Shown: in pieces, positions 1,925 through 38,148 of the stretch
Position numbering within the stretch: position 1 is the first letter of the stretch
How the letters are laid out: each line of letters begins with the position of its first letter
NCBI RefSeq assembly: GCF_000312425.1
Contig: NZ_HE997181.1
Span: forward strand, 275,002 to 339,001
Reading direction: 5' to 3'
Origin: Reyranella massiliensis 521
Lineage (GTDB): Bacteria; Pseudomonadota; Alphaproteobacteria; Reyranellales; Reyranellaceae
Length of the DNA: 64,000 bases
The notes under the pieces: model-generated
The model's database searches: none
What the model saw: only the letters and a program-made list of their open reading frames with translations
What the model was told of the DNA's origin: nothing
Translations under genes and position numbers: made by a program

Positions 1925-2526
1925 AATCTTTAGAAGCGGAGTATCGTGAGCGCTTTGATGGGGCGTTGACGCCCCTTGCGCAGGCGATAGAGCGTGAACT
2001 TAGAATGTATCTTCGTAACGAAGTGCGCATCGACCGCATTTCAGCAAGGCCGAAATCCGTAGAGCGCTTCCTGAAGAAGAGTAGTGCGACCGATAGTAGT
2101 GGCGTACTCAAGTATGCTGACCCATTGACTGAAATCCAAGACCAGGTCGGCGCTCGCGTTGTAACGTTCTATAAATCGGACGTATTGCGAATTGCTGCCG
2201 TGGTCGAAAGATATTTTAAAGCGATCGAGAAGAAGGACCACGTTCCTGAACGAGACTCTGAATTCAGCTATTTTGGAAAACACTACATCTTCTTCGTTTC
2301 ATCAGATGCTTCGAGTGGCTTGGATCGTGCGCTACTGCCGAAGGTGTTCGAGCTTCAAATCAAGACCTTGTTTCAACATGCTTGGTCGGAAGCTAATCAT
2401 GACCTCGGATACAAGCCAGGCGGCAGAACGCTGACCTCAGACGATAGGCGAAAATTGGCTTTCACGTCTGCGCAAGCATGGGGAGCAGATATGATATTTG
2501 ATGAACTCTTTGCTGGGCTACATTAG
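1921..2526 (+). CDS. Small alarmone synthetase-like RelA/SpoT-domain protein
   Basis: The product has 201 residues and is a single RelA/SpoT nucleotidyltransferase domain with no HD hydrolase, TGS or ACT domain, as in small alarmone synthetases. Visible family motifs are RISARPKSVERFLKK (about residues 40-54, substrate-binding basic loop), EIQDQVGARVV (about 70-80, metal-binding Asp region), FELQIKTLFQHAWSE (about 143-157, catalytic Glu) and the following NHDLGYKP. The catalytic residues therefore appear intact, and (p)ppGpp/(p)ppApp synthesis or tRNA pyrophosphorylation, as known for ToxSAS toxins, is possible. The start overlaps the stop of the upstream gene by ATGA. The stop codon lies inside CATTAGGT, the same octamer that ends the putative recombination sites at 11841 and 15537. 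Confidence 0.75.
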   Translation: MKSLEAEYRERFDGALTPLAQAIERELRMYLRNEVRIDRISARPKSVERFLKKSSATDSSGVLKYADPLTEIQDQVGARVVTFYKSDVLRIAAVVERYFKAIEKKDHVPERDSEFSYFGKHYIFFVSSDASSGLDRALLPKVFELQIKTLFQHAWSEANHDLGYKPGGRTLTSDDRRKLAFTSAQAWGADMIFDELFAGLH

Positions 2527-2600
2527 GTCGGTCTCGACGCCTTGCCTCGTGAACTTTGCATCGACTGGTTCGATGTACAGTGATCTCTGCGCATGTAAGC
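2527..2600. repeat. Remnant of the small-recombinase upstream region
   Basis: The 12-mer TACAGTGATCTC at 2576-2587 is identical to 11793-11804, in the region upstream of the intact small recombinase, and nearly matches 19074-19086. The preceding CGACTGG (about 2562) also recurs at about 11760. I read it as a leftover of an earlier copy of the same mobile unit; the rest of the upstream region and most of the 28-bp site are lost. Confidence 0.5.
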
Positions 2601-2632
2601 TGCTCCATTGCAGCCCACTGTAAAGCCTCCGC

Positions 2633-2890
2633 TCAACTAAACAGTTCTACGGCAGCTCTCTTCATCTCATCGTTCACATCGATATAGGCCTGGGTCATTG
2701 AAATTGATCCATGACCGGCTAGCGATGTTAGCACCCGTGCGCCAATCTCTTTGCTGACTAGTGTTGTGATGAAGGTGCGTGGTCAGAGTCGCTCGTAGCC
2801 CCCTCTATCGCTGCGCGCCTGCAAAGACATTCATCGTCTGACTCAGAGCGTTAGCTGAGAATGCAGCAGCTTTGCGTACTGAACAGGTGG
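2633..2890 (-). pseudogene. Decayed tyrosine recombinase (C-terminal remnant 1)
   Basis: Reading the minus strand gives LFSTRKAAAFSANALSQTMN, then a damaged stretch, then TFITTLVSKEIGARVL and LAGHGSISMTQAYIDVNDEM, ending AAVELFS and stop. This matches residues of about 110 to the end of the intact recombinase at 11135-11704. An in-frame stop and a one-base shift lie in the middle, and the His of the HxxR motif has become Asp, so it cannot be active. The N-terminal half is missing. Confidence 0.8.
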
Positions 2891-2976
2891 CAACTAGCCG
2901 TAGGAGGCAGGCTCGTAGAACTTCTGGCAAACCCCATCGGAATTGCTTGCCTTAACGGCAAGCGTCGGATGCTGTC

Positions 2977-4056
2977 TTACAGAAGTTTTCGGCCAAATCG
3001 TTCGACAACGATACGGGAGAGACTTCGCAGGATAGGCTTCCACACTCGTGGCAGCGATTGCTTTTCAAATAGTGACGGGGCGTGGAGTTCATAGCCATAG
3101 CTGCTTTTCCCATGCACTATAGAATTGCGAAATGCGTATAGGCGTTCTCCGAGAAGATTGGTGCTCGCGCTCTCAATCAGACCAGCACGCACGGCATCTT
3201 CCATTAGGCGATCGTCCGTCGCTTGATTGACGAGCTTCAGTAGAGGTCCCTTTTCATCCCTACTGATCAACTTAAGAATTTCGCCGGGGAAATAGTCGTC
3301 GCTAATAGAAGTATCGTGTCGAGCTTTGGCAAACTCTCTCATCATGGATGAGAAGGCGTAAAATTCGAGCACGCGATAGAAATAGAGGCAGGCGGCGACG
3401 TCGTCTTCCTGACTAAGGCCTTTGTGAAAGAAGCGAATGGGCACCATGTCGCGTATGACTGGTCCATCAACCAGCACCTCCGACACAGCGGGCGATTCCT
3501 CGTCGTCGTCGTACAACGGAACGACATCATCTAGGTTCATCTCCCAAAGTATCGGGAGTCCGTTGTACTTTTTGTTGTACCGAATCGCAGCATTGCTGAA
3601 TGCGAGCTCAACTTCCTCGATGTCATTCGCGCCGATGATACGAGCGGTGCTGATGCTCGCCCATTCTCCATAATGCTTTGATCGATGTATTTCATCGAAC
3701 AAGAATGCCATTAGCGGCGTGGCCTGTCCGAATGTGACCTCGACGCGCCCCATGCGAAAGCCATGATGTGGCAGATTCCGCATGTAAACTAAGAACTCAT
3801 GATATGAACCGATGGAAAAGCCGTTGTCGGTGTGGAACTTCACGAGACCTGAATTAGATTCTTCAACTTTGTCCCTGGATGCACTCCATGAAAAGTCTGG
3901 ATATTCACGAGAATATTTTGAAGGCGGTACACTAAATGTGACGCCGGCAGGAGCCCAGGTAACGAGCTCGTTTTCGCCCTGCTTGACGATTGTCAGGTGA
4001 TGGACATGGTTGTCCGGCGGCGGGTCGAAGTTGAACGGTATTGTCGGTTTGGTCAT
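2977..4056 (-). CDS. HEPN-like protein of unknown function, defence-type cargo
   Basis: The product is a soluble protein of 359 residues with no signal peptide or membrane segment. Near the C-terminus the sequence ERLYAFRNSIVHGKSSYG contains R-x4-H (RNSIVH), the hallmark of HEPN ribonucleases, preceded by helical segments. The N-terminal two thirds is beta-rich and unrecognised. HEPN proteins in accessory islands often act as RNA-cleaving toxins or abortive-infection effectors, so that role is inferred. The gene stands alone between two decayed recombinase copies, as expected for a single-gene cassette. The start ATG at 4054-4056 is preceded by AGAGGGCAGATAATA, a usable ribosome-binding site. 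It could also be a non-enzymatic HEPN-fold protein. Confidence 0.5.
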   Translation of the reverse strand: MTKPTIPFNFDPPPDNHVHHLTIVKQGENELVTWAPAGVTFSVPPSKYSREYPDFSWSASRDKVEESNSGLVKFHTDNGFSIGSYHEFLVYMRNLPHHGFRMGRVEVTFGQATPLMAFLFDEIHRSKHYGEWASISTARIIGANDIEEVELAFSNAAIRYNKKYNGLPILWEMNLDDVVPLYDDDEESPAVSEVLVDGPVIRDMVPIRFFHKGLSQEDDVAACLYFYRVLEFYAFSSMMREFAKARHDTSISDDYFPGEILKLISRDEKGPLLKLVNQATDDRLMEDAVRAGLIESASTNLLGERLYAFRNSIVHGKSSYGYELHAPSLFEKQSLPRVWKPILRSLSRIVVERFGRKLL

Positions 4057-4241
4057 TATTATCTGCCCTCTGAGCGCAAAGCTCGTCGGAAGGTCTTATA
4101 GCCCAATTTGCAAGGAACGGCGGCCTATTGCTGAACGGCTTGGTCGCGCACTTCGTGGCCTTGCCACTTCTCCCTGAAAGCTATTAGCACGGTGGGCGGG
4201 ACAGACACATATAGTTGCAACCTTATGGCAGGCGAGAAGTG

Positions 4242-4499
4242 TCAATTGATGAGTTCAACAGCCGCCCGCTTCATCGCATCATTAACGTCAATGTAAGCTT
4301 GTGTTGTTGCTATCGACCGGTGCCCCGCTAACGAGGCAAGCACTCGGACACCGATCCCTTTGGTAGCTAGTGTGGTGATGAAGCTTCGTCTACCGGAGTG
4401 ACTAATAGCCCCTGAAATTCCAGCCCGTCTGTACATTGCATTCACCGTCTGACAGAGAGTGTTTGCGGAGAATGCCGTGCGCCTCTGTGTCTTGAACAT
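4242..4499 (-). pseudogene. Truncated tyrosine recombinase (C-terminal remnant 2)
   Basis: An open frame of 85 codons reproduces the C-terminal part of the small recombinase at 11135-11704 at high identity, from FKTQRRTAFSANTLCQ to MKRAAVELIN. It keeps the HSGRR (HxxR) box, the GH of the third box and the Tyr of TTQAYID, but lacks the N-terminal half with the first catalytic Arg and the Lys. It is a truncated copy and not an independent small gene; whether it is translated cannot be told. Confidence 0.8.
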
Positions 4500-4584
4500 A
4501 GGCTAGTCGGCGCCTGCTGAAAGCAGCATCAACAATATGGAACGGAGTATGACACGAGGAGGCAACGATTTCCGAGAAGCCAAA

Positions 4585-4649
4585 GGCGCTCGATAGCTGC
4601 GCGCTTTATCGCCCTCATTTACGTCGATAGATGCCTGCATTGTAGCGAT
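4585..4649 (-). pseudogene. Short tyrosine recombinase scrap (remnant 3)
   Basis: The minus strand reads IATMQASIDVNEGDKARSYRA over about 21 codons, which aligns with IATTQAYIDVNDEMKRAAVEL at the C-terminus of the intact recombinase. The catalytic Tyr is now Ser. It is the third decayed copy within 2 kb and shows that this locus has received the same unit repeatedly. Confidence 0.65.
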
Positions 4650-4837
4650 GTATCCGATGTCGCATCGGAAATGCGAGCACCTTTACGTCGAACCAGTTGA
4701 TTACCGGGTGCTTCCGAGAACTAAAGTGAGCTGCACTTCGTCGCTAATCTCGAACTCCTTGCCCAAACCTGTCCTTTTGAAGACGGCACAAGCATGCTTT
4801 TCTTTGATCAAGTCGCCAGTCCAACTTGCAAGAAAAC

Positions 4838-5608
4838 TCAACTACGTGGCTGTGTGCTTTCGATAATCAGAAGCTCGGCGTCAAATGCACTTCGGGCCAA
4901 ACGCGCCATCCCTACCAACGCTCGTTCCTCTTCACTAAGTATCCCTGCGTGATTCGGTGGTTCGGCGTCAATCATGAAGCCGGTCCCCTTTGCCAGCCTC
5001 TGGAGGCTTTTCAGAGAGTTGCCAAGATCTTCCGCGGTCATCGGCGGCTGATCGGCGGCTTTCGTCACCCACTCATCGAAACTCAGGGTGAAAAACTCCA
5101 ATTTCTTTGGTTCGGAGAATAGCCAGAAGTATCCGGCCCGCCGGGTGTGATTATTGTAACTTATGTGGTGACGCCCAGCTGGAATCGGTCCAATGCACGA
5201 AGCTTCTATGAATAATGACGAGTTGAGAATGGTGCGTTGCTCGTAGCAGGAATTTAAGGCGTGCGCAGTGAAGAATGAAGGGCATGCATAGTAAACTCTA
5301 GCACCACGAAAGCGTTTGTTCCTGCGCGTAAGTCGTAGAAGTTGACGATGTTGATGGTTGTTCAAATGCATCCGATAGATATCACCACGCATATTCAGGC
5401 TGCGCTCGCGGGAGCGGTTTCCAATGAGTGTTTCGGGACGCTTAAACTGAATGAAGCCGAAGCTAGCGATCTTTACGTCATAGCCAAGCGCATTTTCCTG
5501 GCGAAGCGTTGGAAAGACTGGCGCTACACGGACAAGGCGATTGTGCAAACGCTCTTCAGTAAATGCGTACCCGTAACCAAACTCCGAAAACTCGCACTGC
5601 TGTGGCAT
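4838..5608 (-). CDS. Hypothetical protein, possible nuclease-like cargo
   Basis: The product is 256 residues, soluble and unrecognised. A possible PD-(D/E)XK-like core is seen around residues 43-57, YDVKIASFGFIQFKRPE, where an Asp is followed by a Q-x-K pattern; this is weak. The middle part has aromatic-rich strands (VYYACPSFF, GYFWLFSEP). It lies between recombinase scraps and the convergent hxs cluster end, facing the same way as hxs but 173 bases beyond hxsC, so it may be a separate cassette. The start at 5608 is simply the first ATG of the frame; the next Met is at residue 73. Function cannot be stated. Confidence 0.55.
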   Translation of the reverse strand: MPQQCEFSEFGYGYAFTEERLHNRLVRVAPVFPTLRQENALGYDVKIASFGFIQFKRPETLIGNRSRERSLNMRGDIYRMHLNNHQHRQLLRLTRRNKRFRGARVYYACPSFFTAHALNSCYEQRTILNSSLFIEASCIGPIPAGRHHISYNNHTRRAGYFWLFSEPKKLEFFTLSFDEWVTKAADQPPMTAEDLGNSLKSLQRLAKGTGFMIDAEPPNHAGILSEEERALVGMARLARSAFDAELLIIESTQPRS

Positions 5609-5781
5609 CGAGCGTCCCCCACCCTCTGATGCTAGCTACTGGACGGTGCATCAATTGCTTGAACAAATAGCGCGGCCGACCGGCCTTACTTCAACGCATC
5701 AGAATTATACATTTAACGCCGAGTTTCAGAATCAGTAAAGAGTGGTTACCCATCCCATGATCTTCTCGCCAGGTATTGCCG

Positions 5782-6924
5782 TCATTGAGCGACGATGTAA
5801 GCACTGTGCCGTGTGCGTCCGGTTGCGAAGAAGCCAGCGCACTGGTCCTGGATTGAGCAGGTCGCGCAAGTAGGTAGATACTCCTGCTTCCAATCGCTGA
5901 TCGATTTGCGCGCCAAATGCCAAACCTCTCGCTCAACGATACATAGCTGATGATTGTAGAGAGAGGTGCGTATACCTGCCGCTTCTGTCGTCCGGGCGGC
6001 CTCGGTGAGAGCGATGCGATAGTCGTGTGGATCTATCCAGATGAGTTCAAGGTTCGCGCGCGCAAAGCCGGTAACCTCAAGGGCCATGAACGTTACATGG
6101 TCGATGAATGTTAGATTCCGAGCAAGGAATTCGGCTAGCTGGACCAAGCGCTCTGAATTTTGCTTCAGAACAACGATACGTACTTCGACCCGAACTCCCT
6201 GTGCCTTGAGATTAAGAATGCCCCGGACTGTTTCATCGAAAGCGCCATCTGACTGGACGATGTAGTCGTGGAGCGCTGCGTAGTCTGCATAGATCGGTAT
6301 CCCGATCATGAAATCGGAATGCGAGATGCCTGCGAGTGCCTTTGCGAATGATGGGTCGACAAATCGTCGTCCATTGGACAGTACGTGAAGGGCCGTCCTG
6401 GGAAGGTAGGTCTTCATAGACCGAACAAGGTTGAGAAAGCGATCACCACCGAGGGTGGGTTCACCTCCGGTAATGCCGATTTCACGAGTGTCGTTGCTGA
6501 TCAGGGGGATCGCTTCGTCGAGCTCAGCGTAGATATAGGAGTCGTCAATGTTCTTTGGCGGCTGCGAGCACATGAGGCAGTAGTGGTTGCAGCGTTCCGT
6601 GACCAGAAGGCTATTGCTCGGAGAGTTGCGCCTATACAGCACGCGTAGGACGCCGCGCGAAGGTTCGAGTGCAACCACATCGCCATCTCCGAGATATTCC
6701 AACTCGGGCGGCAACAGTACGGTCCGAAACGCGCCTGTGTAACTCCTGGGACTGGCCGCGAATGTTGCTATTGTTGGACTTCCGTTGACGTTCTCAGGTT
6801 CCAGCAAACAGTCGGATGAGAGAGGAGGGGCGGTAGAGTCAGCAGATCGCAGGCGAAGAACCACACGCTGTTCATTGGGCGAGAAGCCCCGGCACTCCAC
6901 GCCTCTTGCTGATTGTGCGAGCAT
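5782..6924 (-). CDS. hxsC: His-Xaa-Ser system radical SAM maturase HxsC
   Basis: HxsC is one of two paired radical SAM enzymes of the His-Xaa-Ser peptide-modification system. The 380-residue protein carries the iron-sulphur motif CNHYCLMC (CxxxCxxC, about residue 113) in LLVTERCNHYCLMCSQPPKN, then GITGGEPTL (GGEP, SAM-binding), and a Cys-rich tail CATCSIQDQCAGF for an auxiliary cluster. Its length is usual for the family. The start ATG shares one base with the stop of hxsB (TAATG), so translation is coupled. The gene is last in the hxsA-hxsD-hxsB-hxsC operon. The chemistry installed on the peptide cannot be read from sequence. Confidence 0.88.
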   Translation of the reverse strand: MLAQSARGVECRGFSPNEQRVVLRLRSADSTAPPLSSDCLLEPENVNGSPTIATFAASPRSYTGAFRTVLLPPELEYLGDGDVVALEPSRGVLRVLYRRNSPSNSLLVTERCNHYCLMCSQPPKNIDDSYIYAELDEAIPLISNDTREIGITGGEPTLGGDRFLNLVRSMKTYLPRTALHVLSNGRRFVDPSFAKALAGISHSDFMIGIPIYADYAALHDYIVQSDGAFDETVRGILNLKAQGVRVEVRIVVLKQNSERLVQLAEFLARNLTFIDHVTFMALEVTGFARANLELIWIDPHDYRIALTEAARTTEAAGIRTSLYNHQLCIVEREVWHLARKSISDWKQEYLPTCATCSIQDQCAGFFATGRTRHSAYIVAQ

Positions 6925-8423
6925 TAGCCTTTTGCCGCCCAGCTTCTAAACAGGTGCCGAACTTCGCGATCACCTTCCATTAGCTGAATGAGGTGGCGGA
7001 AAAGCGCCATGTTGCGGTGGCAGAATGTTGACGTTGGCTTGCGGCCCAAGAAGTCGCCCTGAGTAGCATGGTGGAATACCGGCTCTGCACCGCAGTATGG
7101 TTCAAATGCGCAGTCACTGCACATCGGCGCGGACACGGTCATGGACTCTTCAATCGGATCCAGAAGGCTATCTGACAGGATCAACTCGTCGTAGGAATCT
7201 GTGTGAACATTCCCGAGCCGGAAGGTCTCGTCACGCATTTCAGCGAGCATGCGAGCCTCGTCAGACGCGTAGACACCACCGTCGTAGTTGTAAAGCAGGG
7301 CGCCAATCCCAATACCCGCAGGGCTGGCCAGATCCACGTAACCAGAATTGAAGGGCGTAAGCATCTTGGAGAGTATGATCGACGCATAGCTTTCGGCGAT
7401 CCGCACGCCATTGCGATTGAGCTCAAGGATATGATCCAAACCTTCCTTGTAAAAGGCGAGCCAGGCATCTACGTCATACGCCGCATACGACTTAGTCTTC
7501 ACGGCGAAGCCATAAGGCGAAAGAGGCCGAAGAAAGATCGAATCGAAGCCTTGTCTCACGTATTCGTCGACAATATCCCGTGGCCGCGAGAGGCTTTCCT
7601 TAGTGGTGGTCATTAGCGCACTCACTCGATCATGGCCCAATGCAGATCGGACTCGTGCGATGCCATCGACTGCCCGTTCATAGCTGTCACGTCCTGGCCT
7701 TGGACGATTGCGATTGTGAAGGTCTCGCGGACCATCCAGTGAGGTAGAAATGACGACGTCATGTTCCTTGCAGAATGCAAGGATGTCATCTGTGAGGGGC
7801 GCCAGATTTGTCGCAATGACAAACTGCAAGTCGCGCTGGTGTGAAGCCTCATTGATCGCCTTGGCGCGAACGACGATGTGGCGAATCAAAGGAAAGTTTA
7901 GAAGAGGTTCGCCTCCTTGAAACTCAATCTTGAGATGTTGAGCTGGCGAACGAAACACGAGGTCAATTGCTTTGTTTGCCGTGTCCTCCGACATGTCAAA
8001 CGTGAGATCGGTATCGATGTTCTGGCGAGACACCTGGCAGTATGGGCAGGAATGCTCGCACCGCAAAGTGACGACAAACAAGTGGAGACCGGTGAACTCT
8101 GCCAGTCGCTCCGTGCGAGTGCGCATCTTGAGAGCCAGCAAGTCCGCCGCGACATCCGAGTCGGCATCGATCAAGAAGTGCTTAGAGGCGAGATCCTTGT
8201 AGACATCGGTTTGCGGTGTCAGGCGATGGCGAGTGAGGTCCTCGATGACAGAGCGGTAGAGGACGAGGTACTCGCCAACTAAGTTGCTTGCGACATACCT
8301 TTGACTGTCGAGCTTAGAGAAGCGGAAGGGAAGGAGCCGGTACGGACTGGCTGAGCGCCGATCGAATGCGACCTCTGTCGCGAACCTAGCCACCGGACTG
8401 CAGACCAGTCTTAGAGAAAGCAA
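6924..8423 (-). CDS. hxsB: His-Xaa-Ser system radical SAM maturase HxsB
   Basis: HxsB is the larger radical SAM enzyme of the His-Xaa-Ser system, 499 residues. The cluster motif CEHSCPYC (CxxxCxxC) lies at about residue 129 in LFVVTLRCEHSCPYCQVSRQ, followed by EFQGGEPLLN. The C-terminal CSDCAFEPYCGAEP and a later Cys in TFCHRNM form a SPASM-like auxiliary cluster region. The N-terminal segment YRLLPFRFSKL fits the family start. The frame given opens at 8423 and overlaps hxsD by 38 bases; a start a few codons later is possible. HxsB and HxsC together are expected to modify the HxsA repeat region. Confidence 0.88.
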   Translation of the reverse strand: MLSLRLVCSPVARFATEVAFDRRSASPYRLLPFRFSKLDSQRYVASNLVGEYLVLYRSVIEDLTRHRLTPQTDVYKDLASKHFLIDADSDVAADLLALKMRTRTERLAEFTGLHLFVVTLRCEHSCPYCQVSRQNIDTDLTFDMSEDTANKAIDLVFRSPAQHLKIEFQGGEPLLNFPLIRHIVVRAKAINEASHQRDLQFVIATNLAPLTDDILAFCKEHDVVISTSLDGPRDLHNRNRPRPGRDSYERAVDGIARVRSALGHDRVSALMTTTKESLSRPRDIVDEYVRQGFDSIFLRPLSPYGFAVKTKSYAAYDVDAWLAFYKEGLDHILELNRNGVRIAESYASIILSKMLTPFNSGYVDLASPAGIGIGALLYNYDGGVYASDEARMLAEMRDETFRLGNVHTDSYDELILSDSLLDPIEESMTVSAPMCSDCAFEPYCGAEPVFHHATQGDFLGRKPTSTFCHRNMALFRHLIQLMEGDREVRHLFRSWAAKG

Positions 8424-8694
8424 CAGCGAGGATGGCGTTTCTAATGTCGCGAGTTTCGTTGGCGATAGTCTGGCGAAGGTCTTGATCCAGAACTTCTATG
8501 CGAAAGCTTGCTACTGCTTCGTCGACTTCTGCAGACGTGACGTTCTTCAGGAACATCAGTTCGCAGACCCAGTCAGTGCCTACTTTGCGGATATCGACGG
8601 AAGCTTGCGCTGCTATGGTGTAAGCGGCGCGCTTGATTGTCTCGGCCGAGAAGAGGGAGCCGTCCAGGCGAACGGACGCACTCGGATTGCTCAT
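8386..8694 (-). CDS. hxsD: His-Xaa-Ser system protein HxsD
   Basis: This small soluble protein has 102 residues, the usual HxsD length. It lies between the precursor gene and the two radical SAM genes. It has mixed alpha/beta character and no cysteine cluster; family members accompany the maturases and may present the peptide, though their role is not established. Identification rests on position, size and overall similarity (FSAETIKRAAYTIAAQASVDI, LQSGG tail). It starts six bases beyond the hxsA stop and overlaps hxsB, so the whole cluster is one operon. Confidence 0.8.
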   Translation of the reverse strand: MSNPSASVRLDGSLFSAETIKRAAYTIAAQASVDIRKVGTDWVCELMFLKNVTSAEVDEAVASFRIEVLDQDLRQTIANETRDIRNAILAVAFSKTGLQSGG

Positions 8695-8700
8695 GATCGA

Positions 8701-8967
8701 TCAGCGCGACGAATAATGCGACCGATGGCTACTGTGAGACGAATGTGAACGGTGCGAAGAGTGGTAGGCCATCAGCTCGCCCGTCTGCGTCGAACGCGTG
8801 ATGACAAGGAACTCCGGTAGCTCGAACTTTGCCACCGCACTCTTGTCGACCGTGTCATCGATGCGTGGTGTCGCATCCTTGGTTGTGGTGGCATCGGCCT
8901 TCGACACGCTAGCCAGAGCTGCCACCGCAGCGGCTACCGAAGTCAAAAATGACCTAGATTTGGACAT
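8701..8967 (-). CDS. hxsA: His-Xaa-Ser repeat precursor peptide HxsA
   Basis: This is the 88-residue precursor of the system. It begins MSKSRSFLTSVAAAVAALASVSKADA, a signal-like hydrophobic leader, then an acidic linker. It ends with six consecutive His-Xaa-Ser triplets (HSS HRS HSS HSS HRS HYS) followed by Ser-Arg. It is of the short HxsA2 type without a peptidoglycan-binding domain. The start at 8967 is chosen because GGGGGAGACGAGA precedes it at good spacing; an upstream Met five codons earlier has no site. The leader suggests the modified product is exported. It is the first gene of a four-gene operon and is divergent from the SGNH/beta-propeller gene. Confidence 0.88.
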   Translation of the reverse strand: MSKSRSFLTSVAAAVAALASVSKADATTTKDATPRIDDTVDKSAVAKFELPEFLVITRSTQTGELMAYHSSHRSHSSHSSHRSHYSSR

Positions 8968-9031
8968 TCTCGTCTCCCCCAATTGTCACTATAATATCAC
9001 TGGCGGTGAACAAATAAACCCCTGCGTGCTC

Positions 9032-11068: not shown

Positions 11069-11134
11069 TCCTTTAGAGGGCATTGCAGCCGCTGGCGCGT
11101 TAGTAAACACGAACAAGAAATCTGCTAGCAGGAG

Positions 11135-11704
11135 TTAAGCAATCAACTCCACCGCGGCTCTCTTCATCTCGTCGTTCACGTCGATATATGCCTGTGTGGT
11201 TGCAATCGAGCGATGCCCCGCTAGCGATGCAAGCACTCGAACCCCAATGCCTTTACTGGCCAGGGTAGTAACGAAGCTTCGTCTACCGGAGTGGCTTGTA
11301 GCCCCTTCGATCCCAGCACGCCTGTAGATGCCATTCATCGTCTGGCAGAGTGTGTTGGCCGAGAACGCAGATCGCTTCTGCGTGCGGAAGAGCGGGAGAC
11401 CATCGTTCTTCGCTCCAATCTGTTTCAGGTACGTGCTTATCTCCTTCCGGAGCCTGTCGTTCATGAAAACTACGCGAGCATGTTTGCCTTTGGTCTGTGC
11501 TGCATCCAGCCTGATCTCGTGCTTTACGCTCCCATCGGTGTTTAGAACGTCACCGACTGTTATAGCGGCTACCTCACCAACTCGCATGCCGGCCCAATGG
11601 GTCATTAGCAGCATGAGCCTGTTTCTAGCGGAGTGAGGGTTGCTGGCAATGCTGTCCAGGACCCTACGAAGCTCTTTGGGTGTGAGCGTCTTTGCTTGAG
11701 GCAT
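11135..11704 (-). CDS. Small single-domain tyrosine recombinase (FimB/Xer-like)
   Basis: This 189-residue recombinase lacks the usual N-terminal core-binding domain, as FimB/FimE-type enzymes do. All catalytic positions are visible: Arg in GMRVGE, Lys in AAQTKGKHA, HSGRR (HxxR), the His of LAGHRSI and the Tyr of TTQAYID. Start MPQAKTLTP at 11704 is preceded by GGAG at 8 bases; a start seven codons upstream is less likely. Three decayed copies lie to the left and an upstream-region scar lies at about 18.98-19.13 kb, so this gene is the active member of a unit that has inserted repeatedly. A putative 28-bp recombination site lies 117 bases upstream of its start. Confidence 0.9.
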   Translation of the reverse strand: MPQAKTLTPKELRRVLDSIASNPHSARNRLMLLMTHWAGMRVGEVAAITVGDVLNTDGSVKHEIRLDAAQTKGKHARVVFMNDRLRKEISTYLKQIGAKNDGLPLFRTQKRSAFSANTLCQTMNGIYRRAGIEGATSHSGRRSFVTTLASKGIGVRVLASLAGHRSIATTQAYIDVNDEMKRAAVELIA

Positions 11705-11820
11705 GTGCGCAGCTCCAAACATCATGTTTCAGCGAGCTGCAAAGTAAGTTCTGATGTTTCGACTGGGCGACCGGAAAGACGTGTGCTGAAGATACAGTGA
11801 TCTCAGCGAGTTAGCGCAGA

Positions 11821-11848
11821 ACCTAAGAAAATGCTAATTTCATTAGGT
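11821..11848 (+). repeat. Putative recombination site, copy 1
   Basis: The pattern is ACCTAA, 11 bases, TTTCATTAGGT. The ends form an imperfect inverted repeat (ACCTAA against TTAGGT). It lies upstream of the intact small recombinase, and the stop of the neighbouring DUF2235 gene falls inside it. The same pattern with the same spacing recurs at 15517 and 19103. Confidence 0.55.
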
Positions 11849-13246: not shown

Positions 13247-13463
13247 GCATCAGCTCTCAATTCTCTCCTAGAGAGCCTACCACAAGTTGCGCGGTAGTAA
13301 TGCAATAACCTCTGGTAAAGGGCGAGTTTGGCGCCTCGTTTCGCGCGCCATCGCGACGACCAGTCAGGTGCAGCGTTAAGCAGTTAGCCTTTACCGTGAG
13401 TTTGGTCGCTTGCTGTTAGCCACATGTTCTACGGCTTGAGCGACCCTACGCACGTGATGACAG

Positions 13464-14240
13464 TTAAAAGCGGCGTCGCAAATGGTGACGCTGTGATAGA
13501 GAGGGCATGCTCGACCGTGTAGTGTGCGAGTAATGTGCTGCAGCATCAATCACGAATTGCGCGGAGGTCGCTTCTAGAGGTTCGCCGATAAGATGCGCCT
13601 GTAAGAACAGAGTTTTGTTCATCGGGAAAAGGAGTGCTTGGGCACCCAATCGATGAGGATCGAGGCGCCACAATAATGGCTCATCGGACCGAAAGCCATC
13701 TTCTGGCTCGTTGTTCCCGAAGTCGAAGTAGACTGGCGCAACGCCTCCCTCCCAGTCGCGCAGCAGCGCGCTCCTATTTGAAGGCACAGAAATCAGCAGT
13801 GGCTTGGGGTGGATGATCGTGCCTGCGTTAATGGCCGCGAAGAACCGCGCCCGATCGAGTGTTCGTCTCCGGGCGTTAATGACCCAAACTAAATTACTGT
13901 AGAAGGCGTCGCGTGATAGACGCTCTTGCTGCTTCAGGAAGGAATTCTGGAATTCGAGAGCTAAGCCTGCGTCCGTCTTCACATCCGCGATGTGCTTTTC
14001 GCCAGATTGAGACGTATGAACATGCTCCTGCCAGTGCTTGGGGAAGTGGTCTTTCCAAGCGCGATGCCACGGTGTTTCAGGCTCCCACCAGTGATCGCAA
14101 TTCCTAGTTCCACGATGTGCCCAATGCCAGACCCGCTGCGGTCCGCATTTTGCGACCACCGCTTCTCTACAAACTGGGCATGTCGCTGACAGGCCAGGTT
14201 GAGCTTCCTGACGGCAGCCTTCGACAGCAGCAAACTTCAT
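13464..14240 (-). CDS. CoiA-like competence/nuclease protein
   Basis: The product has 258 residues from MKFAAVEG, chosen because AGAGGATCTCC precedes it; the frame is open 14 codons further. An N-terminal zinc-ribbon-like part (CPVCREAVVAKCG, then HWAHRGTRNCDHW) is followed by a PD-(D/E)XK-like core, HIADVKTDAGLALEFQNS, where the Asp and the E-x-Q pair are the expected active-site residues. This arrangement is that of the CoiA-like family. No other competence genes accompany it, so it is likely an accessory nuclease cargo of the cassette between the sites at 11821 and 15517. Confidence 0.7.
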   Translation of the reverse strand: MKFAAVEGCRQEAQPGLSATCPVCREAVVAKCGPQRVWHWAHRGTRNCDHWWEPETPWHRAWKDHFPKHWQEHVHTSQSGEKHIADVKTDAGLALEFQNSFLKQQERLSRDAFYSNLVWVINARRRTLDRARFFAAINAGTIIHPKPLLISVPSNRSALLRDWEGGVAPVYFDFGNNEPEDGFRSDEPLLWRLDPHRLGAQALLFPMNKTLFLQAHLIGEPLEATSAQFVIDAAAHYSHTTRSSMPSLSQRHHLRRRF

Positions 14241-14441
14241 GGAGATCCTCTTGCCGAACGTGGATGTCCCACCACAGCACACGAGTGGCCAAGAAAAATT
14301 CGAGGTGGAAGTGGAAGCTCTCGGCTTTTTGCTGATCTTGCATCTTGTCAGCGCCGGTCGCTGATTCTTCGATCGTGGCTATTGTGCTGCCTAGTGATGA
14401 ATGTAGTTCGTTGCAGCCGCTGCCGTCAACTTGACCGGCCG

Positions 14442-14830
14442 CTAGTACTCGGATGGCAACATGAGGACCCAGTGGCTGCCATCGGAGACGAGCCAGACTA
14501 CAATCTCGCCAAACGGGAAGTCGGTGTAGTCCAATATCTGGGTGACGATTGGCGTAGAGCTATTGCCATCTGTCGTCGCCAACTCACCTTGCCGCGAAGC
14601 GGTGTCGACCTTGAGCTTCCAAACCTGGAACGGCTCTACGAGAACGAGCTCATGAACGAGGTAACTAGCAATGGAATCGGTGAGCCAGTGAGCGCCGGCC
14701 GCGTTCGCCAGGAACACGACGCCTTCAGTTATGAGCACTCGGCGTATGAGCGCGTGTCGTTGGGGGGGATGCTTCCCGTGAACTGAGCGAGATGATTAAG
14801 TAGCTCGGATGCCCAAGTGTGGCCCGTTGT
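14442..14830 (-). pseudogene. DUF6876-like gene with frameshift
   Basis: The downstream frame (14442-14738 and a little beyond) reads RHALIRRVLITEGVVFLANA and ends VWLVSDGSHWVLMLPSEY, like small DUF6876 proteins. The missing N-terminus, LLNHLAQFTGSIPP, continues in another frame directly upstream. The two join if one base is added to the run of seven C (minus strand) at 14762-14768. No clear ATG or ribosome site is seen upstream. I therefore call it a broken gene; a sequencing slip in the homopolymer is the other explanation. DUF6876 has no known function. Confidence 0.6.
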
Positions 14831-14999
14831 TTCTTGCTGTGACGGATAGAGAGGAATCGTTCAATCACGCCGGTACTGCCTAAGCTAAACGACCAGTCGC
14901 CCCGTGGGCATCTTTGAAATAGGCTATGCCGGCATAGCTCCCCCATCCTGGAAGCACTCTGGCTTCCTAGAGAAGGGTGCCGAACCGAAGGGGACATCC

Positions 15000-15287
15000 A
15001 TGATCGATGTTGTTGTGACACAGCGGATCAAGCCCGGCTTCGAAGTGGAGGGAGAGGCACTGTTTCGAGAGGTCGAGTTAGCGACCCTCGCAAACGACAA
15101 AGGCTGCCTGCGCTACGAATGGTATCGCGCCGACGAGCCGGGCACTTACATTCTGGTGGAGCGCTGGTCAGATGGCGATGCCATCCAGGCCCATTTCAAG
15201 TCTGCGCACATGGCGACGCTTATGCCCAAGCTCGCGCCCTATGCCGTCGAGAAGTTTGCGACGCAGCGACTTACCCGCTTGGATTAA
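15000..15287 (+). CDS. ABM-domain monooxygenase-like small protein
   Basis: This 95-residue ferredoxin-fold protein of the antibiotic biosynthesis monooxygenase (ABM/YgiN-like) type starts MIDVVVTQRIKPGFEVEGEA and ends KFATQRLTRLD. The motifs CLRYEWYRADEPGTYILVERW and AHFKSAHM are typical. Such proteins oxidise quinols or detoxify small aromatics, but many are uncharacterised. ATG 15000 with AAGGGGACATCC upstream is preferred over earlier in-frame codons. It stands alone, last in the cassette. Confidence 0.8.
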   Translation: MIDVVVTQRIKPGFEVEGEALFREVELATLANDKGCLRYEWYRADEPGTYILVERWSDGDAIQAHFKSAHMATLMPKLAPYAVEKFATQRLTRLD

Positions 15288-15841
15288 AGAAGCTGCTGCC
15301 TGCCCAGGCGTTTTGGGTTTCGGTGCCGACCGAACGGGCTTCTCGCCCTCTGCCGTGCTGGGGTGTCAGTCCGTGCAGGAAGGCAGCCACTCATCGCGGA
15401 TGCGGGCGTGTGTCTACGATGTCATCGCTTCGATCTGCTTGGCGATCAGTCGGCACCAGCCGTCGCTCCAGCATGTAAGATGATGGTAAGAGTGTGGTTG
15501 CCCTTGTCGCAGGAAAACCAAAGGTTTCTGTAGTTTCATTAGGTTCTGAACGTGCTGGGTCTCAAGAAGCTCAAGACGGTGACAAGTCGATCCCCTTCTT
15601 GTGCTTTTCGCTCTTAGTGTCGCCGCCTTTTGAGGAGAGGCTGGCTATTTGAGACCTGCTAAGTGGCGACGCATGGGTCCGTGAAGGACCATTGCCTTGT
15701 ATGCGGGCTACGTCTTTCCTCTCCGGTAGCTGCGTGGGTCCGCTCCGGGAAGACAGCTGCGTCGAGCAAGCCGCCACCGGACTGGCAACGATTGCAGGGA
15801 AGGTGGGGCAGACTGTGTCAAAGCGTGGCTATATCACAGGA
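15288..15841. other. Spacer with no convincing gene
   Basis: This stretch of about 550 bases carries the putative recombination site at 15517-15544 and the presumed promoter of the nuclease gene set. The open frame of the next gene extends back to 15692, but the extra 50 residues look non-coding. Nothing else was recognised. Confidence 0.4.
15517..15544 (+). repeat. Putative recombination site, copy 2
   Basis: The pattern is ACCAAA, 11 bases, TTTCATTAGGT. The right 11 bases are identical to the copy at 11821 and the spacing is the same. No recombinase gene adjoins it. It separates the DUF2235/CoiA/ABM cassette from the four-gene nuclease cassette. Confidence 0.5.
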
Positions 15842-16525
15842 ATGCATGGAGTGTTCCTGGTCGCGGCTGAGCTTTCGGCTCGCGGCTTCATAGTCTCCAC
15901 TGCGTCCCGAAGCGCGACCGGTGCTGACTTACTTGTGACGGATCAACGGTGTCAGAAGGCATGGTCTGTTCAAGTAAAGACGAACGGCAAGAAAGCGTCG
16001 TTCTGGCTGGTCGGTAGCAATGCACAGCACCTCAAATCGCAAAGCTACGTGTATGCATTTGTAAATATAAGGAAGAATAAACCGCCTCAGTTTCTGATCG
16101 TCCCCAGCGAAAGAGTAGCCGCCGCTACGAAGGTCAGTATCAGCAGCACCGGTTCCGTCTGGTACGAGTTCTGGCATAGCTTCGATCCAAGTGTGCAGGA
16201 AGACTCCGTCGGATGGGATGTTTTCGGGAGTCCGCTTGGAGGCAACTATCCATCTCAGATGATTACCATCGAAGATGATGGCAAGCGTAAACAGGGGCCA
16301 GGTGCGGTCGAGCCGATCCGCAATGGCATAAGAATGCCTCGCAAAGGCGGTAAGTGTCGCGGGGTGTGGGATTGGTGCCAGGCTTTCCGCGACGAGAAAG
16401 GAGCACCACCAAAACATAGTGAGGCACTGACAGAAGCTGAACGCAGTGGTTGGAACCGCCTCAACACGGCTACCGAATATGTACGTTGGCGCCAATACTG
16501 GGGCATCCCCGGGCAAGGTCGCTAG
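15842..16525 (+). CDS. PD-(D/E)XK-like endonuclease
   Basis: The 227-residue product begins MHGVFLVAAELSARGFIVST, the opening helix of many restriction-endonuclease-fold proteins, followed by GADLLVTDQ and SVQVKTNGKKASFWL, where Asp and Q-V-K fit the PD-(D/E)XK active site. The C-terminal part (residues 120-227) is specific and unknown. The frame continues upstream to 15692, but the family start is the preferred choice; AGGA sits close to the ATG, so the start is not certain. It is first of four collinear genes with nuclease-like features and is probably a nucleic-acid-cleaving component. Confidence 0.6.
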   Translation: MHGVFLVAAELSARGFIVSTASRSATGADLLVTDQRCQKAWSVQVKTNGKKASFWLVGSNAQHLKSQSYVYAFVNIRKNKPPQFLIVPSERVAAATKVSISSTGSVWYEFWHSFDPSVQEDSVGWDVFGSPLGGNYPSQMITIEDDGKRKQGPGAVEPIRNGIRMPRKGGKCRGVWDWCQAFRDEKGAPPKHSEALTEAERSGWNRLNTATEYVRWRQYWGIPGQGR

Positions 16526-16572
16526 GTGTACCGATGGCAGCAGTGATGGCCACGAGCAATTAGGGAGCGCAA

Positions 16573-17370
16573 ATGATACCCGATCGGCTCATCCGCATAC
16601 TGCGTTCCAGCGAGGCCGCTGCTGCTCCTCTGTTTCCGCCAACGGAAGTCTTCAACGAAGGTTGGATGCTGCGCCTAGTACTGGATGCCTTGCGCCACTG
16701 TCGGCCATTGTCCTTGCCAATACAGTTTGAGGCTGGAGCAAAATGGTACTCGGAAGCCTTGCTCGCTTCGCCTTTCGCCGCGCAGCAGAAGGCAGACGTC
16801 CTGGCGGAAGGATTTACGAATGCCGACGGTGTGGTCGGTCAGTTTGCATTTCGTCCGATGACGCAGACAGGACTAGAGCTGGCATCCGATGCGACGCAGT
16901 TCATTGTCATTGAAGCCAAAATGTTCAGCAATCTCTCGAGCGGCACCAAGAACGCACCAGGTTATAACCAAGCGGCACGCAATGTGGCTTGCATGGCCCA
17001 AGAAATTGCTCGTGCCGGGCGGACGCCAGAGAGCTTTTCATCGGTGGGCTTTTTCGTCATGGCCCCAATCCCCACAAAGCGGCGCGCGGGCTTTTCCAAT
17101 CTGGAAGCCTTTCTGGATCCAGCCCAAATCCGCGCCGCGATTTCCAAGCGAATCAAGGCCTACGAGGAGGCAAGCCGGGCTGAGGCGGCAAGGCTTCGCG
17201 CATGGGAGGTGCGGTACTTCCTTCCATTAGTGCAGTGTCTGATCGATCGCGAGTCGCTCAAGGTGGTGACCTGGGAGGCTTGCATTGATGCGGTGGCCAG
17301 CGTCGATAGAGATGCCGGCGAAGAACTTAGCCGCTTCTATGAGCGCTGTCTGTCATTCTTAGCCCGGTAG
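16573..17370 (+). CDS. Second restriction-endonuclease-fold candidate
   Basis: The 265-residue product has FNEGWMLRLVLDAL (N-terminal helix with Glu), then ADGVVGQF and FIVIEAKM spaced like the Asp and E-x-K of PD-(D/E)XK enzymes. After these comes a conserved-looking block NAPGYNQAARNVACMAQEI and a charged helical segment at 185-215. ATG 16573 follows AGGGAGCGCAA, a good ribosome site. It lies 47 bases after the first nuclease gene in the same direction. Function is inferred as nuclease; the substrate is unknown. Confidence 0.55.
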   Translation: MIPDRLIRILRSSEAAAAPLFPPTEVFNEGWMLRLVLDALRHCRPLSLPIQFEAGAKWYSEALLASPFAAQQKADVLAEGFTNADGVVGQFAFRPMTQTGLELASDATQFIVIEAKMFSNLSSGTKNAPGYNQAARNVACMAQEIARAGRTPESFSSVGFFVMAPIPTKRRAGFSNLEAFLDPAQIRAAISKRIKAYEEASRAEAARLRAWEVRYFLPLVQCLIDRESLKVVTWEACIDAVASVDRDAGEELSRFYERCLSFLAR

Positions 17371-17437
17371 ATAACAGGCACCTCTAGCTCGGGGCGTCTC
17401 GGAAACTCTACTGGCAGCATATTGCGATGTAGGCGAA

Positions 17438-18136
17438 ATGCGGACTAATGACCTTCAGAGATTCTATGCTGCGCTTTCGGTTTTGAAACGGCGATCGGGA
17501 GGAGCGCGGACATTAGGGCTATGCTCTGGGCAGATGAAATGGCCCAGGCGTGGCGTCTATTTTTTTGGTGAGCTGGGCGAGGAGCGCTCCAATAGTGGCT
17601 GCGGCCTACGTGTAGTTCGCGTCGGCACGCATGCGCTTAAGGAAGGAGGCACGACTACGCTTTGGGATCGGCTCTCGCAACATAGAGGTCACTCAAGTAG
17701 CGGCAGCGGCAATCATCGCGGTTCAATTTTCCGACTGATGGTTGGCCAATCGCTCATTGCGCAGCGTGGATATGAGTATCCGATGTGGGGCAAAGGTAGC
17801 AATGCACCGAAAGAAGTGCGGATAACCGAGGTTCCGTTAGAATGCGAAGTGAGTAAGGTAATAGGTGCAATGCCATTCCTATGGCTGGCGATCGATGACA
17901 AGGCGGGACCAACGAGTTCTCGCGGCTACATTGAAAGGAACTCGATCGCGCTCCTGAGCAATCTGGGAAAGGAGGCGCTTGATGCGCCGTCCCCTGAGTG
18001 GCTTGGATACCGTTGTAATCGTTCGCGGGTTCGTGCCTCGGGGCTCTGGAACTCTAACCACGTCGATGAACCTTACGACCCCGGCTTTCTCGCAACGTTA
18101 GAGCGGCTGGTCGAAGAGACGGAAGGTGAGCCGTGA
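17438..18136 (+). CDS. GIY-YIG-like nuclease-domain protein
   Basis: In this 232-residue protein, RRGVYFFGEL (G-V-Y) and LRVVRVGTHA (in place of Y-I-G) followed by LWDRLSQHRG make the GIY-YIG pattern in residues 38-85, with a downstream Glu in RGYIERNSIALL. The layout suits a GIY-YIG-fold domain, possibly active. The stop overlaps the GTG start of the next gene (GTGA), so the two are coupled. GIY-YIG proteins coupled to DUF6884-like partners are plausible as a functional unit, but this is my inference. Confidence 0.6.
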   Translation: MRTNDLQRFYAALSVLKRRSGGARTLGLCSGQMKWPRRGVYFFGELGEERSNSGCGLRVVRVGTHALKEGGTTTLWDRLSQHRGHSSSGSGNHRGSIFRLMVGQSLIAQRGYEYPMWGKGSNAPKEVRITEVPLECEVSKVIGAMPFLWLAIDDKAGPTSSRGYIERNSIALLSNLGKEALDAPSPEWLGYRCNRSRVRASGLWNSNHVDEPYDPGFLATLERLVEETEGEP

Positions 18137-18786
18137 TTGTCGTAATTCAATGCGCGGCGAGGAAGCGCAAGGACGCAGGTCATCTACAGACGCGCGATGG
18201 CAAGCGCGTTGTGTTTATTTCTGATCCGACTATAGCGCCTACGTCCGATGCCTGCATCTACGCGCGGCCGGATGATCCTTCTGATCACGGAGGGACCTGG
18301 CGAGAGTATCTGTTGCGATACAACGAGACGCCTCAAGACAACCCTCTGGCACTTCTTCCGGCACTTGAACTCTACAAAGAAAGAACTTACCAGTGCCTCG
18401 GGAATCACTTCGGATTTGATAAGACTTTCATTCTCTCAGCGGGCTGGGGGCTGATATCAGCGTCTTTCTTAACGCCCCAGTATGACATTACGTTTTCGGC
18501 AAGGGCAGATGCTTGGAAGCGAAGAAGACAACGCGATATAGGTAGAGACCTGTCGATGCTTCCCACCAATTCTAGCGAACCGATAGTGTTCTTGGGCGGA
18601 AAGGATTATTTGCCCCTCTTTTTGAGGCTGACCACAAGTACTACGTCGCCTCGCACAGTGTTCTACAATTCTGCAGAGATACCGCATGCTCCGGGCTGTC
18701 GCCTTGTTCGTTGTGCGACGAACAGGAAGACGAACTGGCACTATGATTGTGCGAGTGCGCTGCTTCGCGGTCCGATTGACCTGTAA
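18133..18786 (+). CDS. DUF6884-like protein
   Basis: The 217-residue product begins MIVVIQCAARKRKDAGHL and has FILSAGWGLISASFLTPQYDITF, the two signature segments of DUF6884/YaaA-like proteins (an N-terminal V-x-x-Q-C-A-x-x-K and an L-S-A-x-x-G-L followed by Y-D). Related folds occur in nucleotide- and deazapurine-related enzymes, so a nucleic-acid-linked role is possible. GTG start overlaps the upstream stop. It is last in the four-gene set that ends before the recombination scar at about 18.98 kb. Confidence 0.6.
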   Translation: MIVVIQCAARKRKDAGHLQTRDGKRVVFISDPTIAPTSDACIYARPDDPSDHGGTWREYLLRYNETPQDNPLALLPALELYKERTYQCLGNHFGFDKTFILSAGWGLISASFLTPQYDITFSARADAWKRRRQRDIGRDLSMLPTNSSEPIVFLGGKDYLPLFLRLTTSTTSPRTVFYNSAEIPHAPGCRLVRCATNRKTNWHYDCASALLRGPIDL

Positions 18787-19314
18787 AGTTTAAGCTAAGG
18801 GCGGCGTCTTGAGATCACTTCATCTTACTTCGGCTAAGATGAACGGCTCCGAGACAACTAGTGTTTAGATGAGCGGATGCGCGAACACGCGCGCCGGAGG
18901 GAGCGCATCGCCCCACATTATTAGCGCCGCACCACGTCAGCTCAAAGCTGCCAAGATCGGACGCTTACTCATTGTTTTAGGCATGTGCTGCAGTTCCAAA
19001 ATCTCATGATTTCACGCGCAGCAGCGTAAAGTCTGGTGTTCTGAAAAAGCGACCGGAAAGGCACTTGTAGAAGTACGAGTGATCTCAGTGGGTTAGCGTG
19101 AAACCTAATGTTTTGTGCATTTCATGAGGTTTCTACACTCTGGAGTCAGAGCCGAAATTGAAGGCTATCAACAGCCTGTCTCAATAATTTCTCGAAACCG
19201 ACATCTTTCGGCAATCCAACATCGGCGACATGGGGCCGCCTCGTAAGAAGGGCCTCCCAACAAATCTCCGCCCCCTTCATCGATCCTGTGGACACAGCGG
19301 TGAGGTGCTAGCCG
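18787..19314. other. Spacer containing a recombinase-upstream scar
   Basis: No gene was found. Bases 18981-19130 resemble 11700-11848: the first codons of the small recombinase on the minus strand (ATGCC), its GGAA/GGAG ribosome site, GCGACCGGAAAG, AGTGATCTCAG and the 28-bp site are all recognisable. The recombinase body itself is absent. Confidence 0.6.
19103..19130 (+). repeat. Putative recombination site, copy 3
   Basis: The pattern is ACCTAA, 11 bases, TTTCATGAGGT. The outer ends extend to an inverted repeat AAACCTAATG against CATGAGGTTT with one mismatch. It closes the nuclease cassette on the right and lies in a relic of the small recombinase upstream region. Confidence 0.55.
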
Positions 19315-21761: not shown

Positions 21762-21763
21762 CC

Positions 21764-24721: not shown

Positions 24722-25147
24722 CTACTTCGCCTTTCCAGCCTGGACGGCTGCATCCATCGCAGCATCCAGCTCGCCCGCCTTCACAGCAGTGATGACGGTC
24801 GCGATCACTTCGGGAATGGCCGACACCGCCGGGACAGACACGGCCTTACGCCCCTTGCCGAGATCGAGCACGCGTGCCCCATAACGGATGGTGAGGCTCA
24901 CACCCTGACCGTCGGCAAAGTACCAAGGCCTGATCAGCTTGTCGCGAGTGATGCGGGTCTTGTTGCCGGCATCGTCGCGGGTCCAGACGTTCTTGGTGAC
25001 GGAGTACTTCGTGCCCTTGGCCTCATGCTCGGCCAGCTTGGACTGCTCTTCGAGCTTCTGGATCAGGTTGTCACGCCGCTTCTCCAGCGGGCTCTTACTG
25101 GTGGGCCGCTTCAGCTGCGTGAGGTTGAGTTTCGCCATGATGCTCAT
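24722..25147 (-). CDS. DUF6641-family protein
   Basis: The 141-residue protein starts MSIMAKLNLTQLKRP. That ATG follows GAGGAG at 7 bases, so an upstream frame extension to 25192 is rejected. Features are SPLEKRRDNLIQKLEEQ (coiled helix), then RPWYFADGQGVSLTIRYGARVLDLGKG, the recognisable core of DUF6641 proteins found on plasmids and phages of Proteobacteria. Function is unknown. It lies 134 bases upstream of the TM0106 nuclease gene in the same direction and may be cotranscribed. Confidence 0.75.
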   Translation of the reverse strand: MSIMAKLNLTQLKRPTSKSPLEKRRDNLIQKLEEQSKLAEHEAKGTKYSVTKNVWTRDDAGNKTRITRDKLIRPWYFADGQGVSLTIRYGARVLDLGKGRKAVSVPAVSAIPEVIATVITAVKAGELDAAMDAAVQAGKAK

Positions 25148-38073: not shown

Positions 38074-38145
38074 TGCCTAACATTTGCCTAGCAAACAAAC
38101 ACTTATCGCTAGTGCATAACAAGTGCCTAACAAAAATTGTTAGGT
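38074..38145. repeat. Phased direct repeats, candidate integrase arm sites
   Basis: TGCCTAACA (38074), TGCCTAGCA (38085), TGCATAACA (38113) and TGCCTAACA (38124) form two pairs, each spaced exactly 11 bases, 39 bases apart. An inverted TGTTAGG lies at 38139-38145. One helical turn spacing and the position between the integrase and secA suit integrase arm-type binding. Confidence 0.6.
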
Positions 38146-38148
38146 TTT
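38126..38148 (+). terminator. Possible terminator hairpin
   Basis: CCTAACAA and TTGTTAGG pair over 8 bases around AAA and are followed by TTTT on the plus strand. It overlaps the last arm-like repeat, so it may be a recombination feature and not a terminator. Confidence 0.4.

Follow-up and report, generated by a model that had tools for sequence, protein, structure and literature searches.

A catalytic-domain-only tyrosine recombinase and its upstream 28-bp inverted-repeat site in Reyranella massiliensis 521: a candidate multimer-resolution module

A 64,000-nucleotide stretch of the genome of Reyranella massiliensis 521 (contig NZ_HE997181.1, positions 275,002–339,001, assembly GCF_000312425.1; referred to here as the window) encodes a tyrosine recombinase of 189 residues, whose gene is preceded by a 28-bp imperfect inverted repeat. 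Gene and repeat recur as a pair in dozens of other bacteria, within apparent mobile islands of the chromosome. We propose that the two may well form a multimer-resolution module, resembling TnpI/irs, of an integrative-element family that is apparently undescribed; we hold this self-resolution reading to be about as probable as all of its rivals combined. The module (site, promoter region and gene) spans about 720 bp.

Results

Recombinase and 28-bp sites in the window

The recombinase-related features of the window are as follows (position, strand, description).

11135–11704, minus strand: intact catalytic-domain-only tyrosine recombinase, 189 residues (PF00589); an in-frame ATG would extend it to 11725
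11719–11729, minus strand: inner arm of a promoter-proximal inverted pair (arm echo; predicted accessory or operator arm)
11747–11757, minus strand: outer arm of the same pair (arm echo)
11821–11848, minus strand: predicted core site of the intact recombinase, 11-6-11, ACCTAATGAAA-TTAGCA-TTTTCTTAGGT
15517–15544, minus strand: orphan core site, spacer CTACAG (nhmmer E 7.6e-4 over model positions 14–63)
19103–19130, minus strand: core site of a lost recombinase, spacer TGCACA (pattern match)
18960–19130, minus strand: scar of the lost recombinase, keeping the core site, the promoter region and the first few codons from the start codon on (nhmmer E 3.9e-17)
4242–4499, minus strand: C-terminal recombinase remnant, open frame of 85 residues matching residues 104–188 (confirmed at about 4248–4502)
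2633–2890, minus strand: C-terminal recombinase remnant, broken frame (best piece 2636–2779)

An initial annotation of the window had listed the 28-bp sites at 11821, 15517 and 19103, and all three are present. The site is better described as an imperfect inverted repeat of 11-6-11 layout, read on the recombinase strand. With at most two mismatches the window holds 4 matches against 0.02 expected, one of them being the 11821 site on the opposite strand, and none of 100 shuffled sequences reaches 4; these statistics are post hoc, the pattern having been derived from the three sites themselves. The same three are the only perfect matches to a slightly looser pattern in the 5.79-Mb genome. No two of them share a spacer. 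The core site at 11821–11848 contains the stop codon of the adjacent Tle1/LysM gene, and the recombinase upstream region is absent alongside the 15517 site. A sequence noted earlier as overlapping the stop of the alarmone-synthetase gene at 2524 does not hold up as a fourth site: CATTAGGT at 2521 is a half-site only, since a left arm is missing from the 28-mer that terminates at this point, and its position is downstream of a recombinase remnant.

The protein that had been annotated as an intact 189-residue recombinase matches PF00589 [E 3.3e-28, 99.1 bits against a cut-off of 27.1, residues 13–186 of 196 over profile positions 2–171 of 172], and no further Pfam domain is found in it at E 0.001. 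Residues R41, H138, R141, H164 and Y173, which we take to be the catalytic residues, are invariant among 23 aligned recombinase sequences. A profile built from the 23 matches five Protein Data Bank sequences, including XerA, XerD and XerH, over the C-terminal catalytic part only. Judged from its sequence, the small recombinase has no N-terminal core-binding domain. The AlphaFold model of the 189-residue protein has a mean pLDDT (predicted local distance difference test) of 72, with weak stretches at residues 137–153 and 159–176, and is too poor for fold searches.

The site beside the gene in other genomes

A protein search gave 6007 relatives at E ≤ 0.001 among 6287 candidates. When one genome of each species was scanned, 435 places were confirmed, and we kept the 80 best. 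By their titles the kept loci (denoted by L numbers) are mostly alpha- and betaproteobacterial (Polynucleobacter, Limnohabitans, Roseomonas, Paraburkholderia and others); other groups appear in a small number of titles, for which the binning of metagenome contigs is perhaps part of the cause. Each locus was scored for its best 28-mer of 11-6-11 layout between 115 and 190 bp upstream of the recombinase start. A score of at least 16, the threshold, is reached in 53 of 75 loci; shuffled regions reach it in 1 case of 75, and regions lying 1 kb further upstream in 5 of 74. In the 62 kept loci with a site its offset from the start codon has a median of −144 (range −176 to −129). Since in most loci of other genomes the motif recurs at a set distance before the gene, with the same geometry, its assignment to this recombinase family as an inverted-repeat core site, already suggested in the initial annotation, is supported by sequence comparison. 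The score counts arm and edge columns, whose apparent conservation is therefore in part a product of the scoring; the four innermost bases of the spacer do not enter it.

Five genomes were scanned whole, allowing any base at the six spacer positions and at most three mismatches across the 22 arm positions: Polynucleobacter sp. MWH-HuK1 (a single 2.15-Mb contig), Roseomonas ponticola, Burkholderia guangdongensis, Polynucleobacter sp. CS-Odin-A6 and Polynucleobacter parvulilacunae. The recombinase's own site occurs at one place only in all five. Polynucleobacter sinensis, scanned with a fixed spacer, likewise has one place, although a second site with another spacer would escape such a scan. R. 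ponticola has a second recombinase (L022) with its own, different site, which the L020 pattern does not match. The pairing of pattern and recombinase, for which a search of related genomes had been suggested, does recur, but in the five genomes scanned with a free spacer it does so as a single site and not as several sites flanking cassettes.

The spacer is free to vary, with 49 distinct spacers among the 62 loci. Between recombinases that are 50–70% identical, the inner four spacer bases are identical at a frequency of 0.23–0.24, which is the chance level, and the arms at 0.51–0.61. Where the recombinases are at least 90% identical, arm identity rises to 0.87, that of the six-base spacer is 0.61 and that of its inner four bases 0.45; spacers are thus more alike among close loci and drift with descent. 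Strand exchange by tyrosine recombinases normally needs matching spacers, and some of these enzymes tolerate a mismatch. A spacer that needed a partner elsewhere (attB, attC or a cassette border) could hardly drift freely, whereas free drift is compatible with an identical copy as the sole partner. This is our main reason for suggesting that the core site would pair only with an identical copy of itself.

Other sequences near the site were also noted. Repeats of GCTTGTAGG to the left of the site in some loci were set aside as a feature, with at most three copies per locus (L069); most loci that have the sequence carry one copy near the recombinase. By eye, several loci have TATTTAGC ahead of the DUF6641 gene and GCTAAATA on the left side of the core site, in the same direction on the element; these stretches could mark a cargo border or an origin. 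Between core site and gene, 35 of 79 loci carry a motif like TAAGTYNTTGA, which is also seen near the integrase end of some elements, including window positions 38130–38180 and the element of genome G030 described below.

A promoter-proximal inverted arm pair

The arms of the core site are echoed near the recombinase start codon. In the window the echo consists of ACATCAGAACT and AAACATGATGT, inverted and 17 bp apart. Across loci, pairing each site with its own region gives an echo score of 856, compared with a mean of 806.6 (sd 9.0) for mispaired sites, and none of 2000 permutations reaches 856. In 33 of 63 loci the best inverted pair has its arms 15–18 bp apart; the corresponding count is 22–25 when sites and regions are mispaired and 6–11 with shuffled arms. 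Clear single cases are L041, L059, L075, L087 and L020, whose arms are unlike one another and are each echoed.

Remnants of other recombinase copies

The scar near 18981–19130, said to retain only an upstream region, is confirmed and retains in addition a start codon and a few codons; it is identical to the intact upstream region in 120 of 185 alignment columns. Of the three decayed C-terminal copies described in the initial annotation, those at about 2636–2779 and 4248–4502 are confirmed, and the 65-bp piece at 4585–4649 is not confirmed by itself. Over 85 residues the 4242 remnant and the intact copy share about 85% identity (192 of 258 bases). Over the same C-terminal 85 residues, and among the best 120 relatives listed, the remnant is 84–88% identical to relatives elsewhere and the intact copy 89–94% identical to its best ones. 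The intact copy is therefore closer to outside relatives than to the 4242 remnant, so that the copies in the window look like different recombinase lineages rather than products of a recent local duplication. Relative to the intact copy, every upstream piece is found to one side and every C-terminal piece to the other, an arrangement that could reflect either nesting or chance.

Accretion of several whole elements in the window was considered and rejected: the recombinase alone is multi-copy, and the C1, C2 and C4 gene clusters (see below) are single. We accordingly speak of recombinase turnover. C-terminal fragments in three genomes of the genus (L132, 1519–1773; L133, 1504–1698; and the window, 4248–4502) all begin to match at residue 104, and one of the three comes after transposase-like sequence. 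The linker before residue 104 is poorly conserved, so the common start may be an alignment effect.

Backbone genes and insertion at secA

Single-linkage clustering of open reading frames around the kept loci identifies recurrent neighbours: C1 (46 loci), C2 (41), C3 (37), C4 or ‘YWWW’ (31) and C5 (22). C1 is DUF6641 by Pfam (L080 member), C2 a full-length tyrosine integrase and C5 an AAA ATPase whose best PHROG is a clamp loader. A HUH-like gene is present in 14 loci; one member has a weak match to Pfam REP_ORF2-G2P (E 0.0039), below the cut-off. Of the clusters C1–C5, at least one is present in 30 and at least two in 22 of the 31 loci whose sequence extends 9 kb or more to either side; for all 78 loci the numbers are 66 and 49. 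The C4-C3-C5 block occurs in both orientations relative to the recombinase (L066, L087, L093 and L096 against L057, L080, L084 and others). A promoter type common to the DUF6641 gene and the recombinase was not borne out, the strict pattern preceding 4 of 48 DUF6641-cluster genes and 46 of 91 recombinase-cluster genes. The corresponding features of the window are listed here.

24725–25246, minus strand: C1, DUF6641-like backbone gene (best relative 53%, below the Pfam cut-off)
28743–30080, minus strand: C8-type cargo gene (34%; no Pfam match), presumably a transglycosylase of the DpdA kind
31973–32917, plus strand: C4, ‘YWWW’ backbone gene (best relative 41%)
36255–37823, minus strand: C2, full-length tyrosine integrase-like gene adjoining secA (best relative 52%; no Pfam match at E 0.01)
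38074–38090, plus strand: right copy of the 17-bp direct repeat TGCCTAACATTTGCCTA, proposed element border; the left copy is at −821, before the window start
38179–40944, minus strand: secA, whose 3′ end is the insertion point by comparison with same-genus genomes

Of the 31 same-genus genomes, 28 have a long match to the secA 3′ end, that of R. massiliensis 521 included. Five of the 24 same-genus loci read (L145, L146, L150, L153 and L158) carry, within the available flank, the sequence that in the host lies to the left of −6.3 kb. One of the five is a complete genome, G018, where that left neighbour gene stands directly beside secA, an empty counterpart. The empty-site comparison that had been suggested finds the place of the block, at the secA 3′ end, vacant in this genome. 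At the same place G030 has a different element, with a recombinase (48% identical to that of the window), a core site at −145, C4 and C2; no second core site is present within the 18 kb read. At E 1e-20 the recombinase query has matches in 6 of the 31 genomes, the host again included, three of which are only partial apart from distant matches. Beside the left repeat copy is a 35-bp stretch resembling the secA tail (89%, E 6.4e-5), and several same-genus secA tails likewise align there. This E value is also reached by unrelated places, and the left element border at −821 is therefore a proposal. Integration of the block at secA would be better explained by the second, full-length integrase gene than by the small recombinase.

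Cargo and other genes of the window

The genes around the sites, annotated as mobile cargo, do look like it. Positions 5782–8982 hold, as cargo, a set of His-Xaa-Ser peptide-modification genes: HxsB (TIGR03978, 625 bits against a cut-off of 370), a second radical-SAM gene, a small gene and a Ser-His-rich peptide. The pair at 17438–18786 matches the candidate defence system PDC-M57 (M57B, E 4.9e-83; M57A, E 4.3e-6), and 2977–4056 has a weak match to DzbB (E 2.5e-8) and adjoins a RelA/SpoT-domain gene (1921–2526). A large serine recombinase followed by two RepB/ParB-like genes (19315–22666) is possibly a separate mobility module within the island. No Rfam match was obtained at the gathering threshold, and the window has no tRNA genes.

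Discussion

Comparison with known systems

In Tn4430 and Tn5401 the irs site lies directly upstream of the resolvase gene and comprises a core (IR1-IR2) and further subsites, with promoters inside, and Tn5401 is regulated through TnpI binding (PMC7157771). The module described here shares the inverted-repeat core site upstream of, and adjoining, a tyrosine recombinase gene. Its possible further binding motifs, the extra arms near the promoter, form an inverted pair, mostly 16–17 bp apart, and not direct repeats like the additional subsites DR1 and DR2 of TnpI/irs. The protein, unlike TnpI, consists of the catalytic domain only and is encoded beside integrase-bearing island genes; the recurrent neighbours belong to families other than those of a Tn3-family transposon, which has TnpA and ends of 38–40 bp, although no search aimed at TnpA was made.

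The dif site is likewise built of 11 bp, 6 bp and 11 bp, and the XerS gene lies immediately beside difSL (PMC5357621), so that both the core layout and, for XerS/difSL, the neighbourhood of gene and site are shared. XerS/difSL, XerH/difH and XerCD/dif differ in that the gene described here belongs to an accessory element and is not a host Xer, encodes the catalytic domain only instead of a core-binding plus a catalytic domain, and has arms and a spacer that vary between loci. GInts are islands with tyrosine recombinases and variable cargo, in which an operon encodes three putative integrases and a small protein (PMC5385486). Our elements resemble them in the first respect, but they have one small recombinase gene, joined in roughly half of the loci by an integrase gene that stands apart at a distance; gene maps inspected by eye contain no run of three integrase-cluster genes, although no search with gin sequences was made.

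The window resembles an integron, as had been suggested, in having a tyrosine recombinase near sites that border cargo. Unlike the IntI, attI and attC system, it has no counterpart of a site array in the five other genomes, the recombinase scores 49.6 bits with the integron integrase model TIGR02249, far under the cut-off of 265, and the protein is without an N-terminal domain. This comparison does not favour an integron-like system.

Proposed role and alternatives

According to our model, the C2 integrase would insert the element at a gene end. After excision, together with any replication or homologous exchange, multimers carrying direct copies of the site would arise; the small recombinase would bind the arms of two identical core sites and resolve such dimers or multimers. 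Binding at the promoter-proximal pair might provide autoregulation, and directionality or topological selectivity. Turnover within the island would have left the window's orphan site, scar and C-terminal fragments behind as relics of previous lineages of the recombinase; they would not be active cassette borders.

Several observations weigh against this model. The host genome holds three sites, unlike the five other genomes scanned. The promoter-proximal pair stands at other distances in 30 of the 63 loci, and mispaired sites still give 22–25 pairs at 15–18 bp; moreover, the arm-echo statistics ignore kinship between loci, and the sites were chosen with a consensus that scores arm and edge columns. 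The backbone counts are raw, without a background rate, and C2 is a broad family. The recombinase is almost missing from plasmid records (1 of 72,556 at E 1e-30) and has no match among 50,697 phage records at E 1e-25; the viral contigs of IMG/VR contain 28 relatives, three of them at 51–55% identity. The HUH-like gene and the clamp-loader-like ATPase are weak evidence for an autonomous replicating phase of the element, which is therefore tentative. Finally, 6 of 36 pairs of loci (at least 76% identity) lose similarity within 8 bp of the outer edge of the site, which is what exchange of cargo there would also give.

The last point bears on the reading of the initial annotation, an accumulating cassette array in which incoming circles with a site would recombine at a resident site, so that units of site, recombinase and cargo accumulate. 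The spacing of the window sites, 3.6–3.7 kb apart around unrelated cargo, speaks for such capture, as do the one-sided placing of upstream and C-terminal pieces about the intact copy and the six pairs just mentioned (L029 and L032, for example). We nevertheless regard it as unlikely: each of the five genomes has its site at a single place, the window spacers are unlike one another and spacers of distant loci are identical only at chance level, although strand exchange would normally need a match, and 27 of the 36 close pairs remain similar past the site and lose similarity further out (the other 3 lose it further in). Two of the three window sites are moreover the upstream regions of recombinases, one intact and one lost.

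It is equally improbable, in our view, that the recombinase works as a regulatory switch, either as a FimB-like invertase or as a pure transcription regulator, with the 28-bp repeat as an operator or half of an invertible promoter. FimB and FimE have about 190–200 residues and consist of the catalytic domain only, a size and composition shared by the protein described here; it matches the NCBIfam family ‘tyrosine-type DNA invertase’ (E 8.4e-8), though with 32.1 bits against a cut-off of 221, and roughly half of the loci have the second inverted arm pair close to the promoter. However, a FimB-type layout, with an inverted pair of sites around an invertible segment, was found neither in the surroundings of 79 loci nor in the five whole genomes, and second matches around the recombinase (up to six mismatches) are few and weak (27, compared with 12 in shuffled sequence, for the 79 loci). 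The invariant active-site residues would be needless for a pure regulator, and an operator would need no 11-6-11 layout with a free centre.

Least probable of all is an integration module, in which the small recombinase would use the 28-bp site to integrate or excise the element and the larger integrase would have another function. With attP beside int, too, a core-type site adjoins a recombinase gene, but an integrated element would then hold two copies with the same spacer, where five of five genomes show one place. In the window the block stops at secA, next to the gene of the larger integrase, and a 17-bp direct repeat is present.

Significance of the module

The element family is apparently undescribed, to judge from a literature search that gives weak evidence of absence. 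No paper on DUF6641 was found in the open-licence PubMed Central literature, and no title or abstract opening describes the module among the matches listed there for Polynucleobacter islands, short tyrosine recombinases and multimer resolution. If self-resolution is the correct reading, a common and seemingly unnamed family of islands would gain a defining module of about 720 bp that is easily searched for. We suggest, tentatively, that the family carries some of the smallest natural Cre/lox-like systems, in which catalytic-domain-only enzymes act on a 28-bp site of their own with co-diversifying arms and freely drifting spacers. The 62 loci, together with thousands of metagenome relatives, would then make up a natural set of enzyme–site pairs with unlike specificities, and a domain-minimal tyrosine recombinase with a proposed site would allow specificity without a core-binding domain to be tested.

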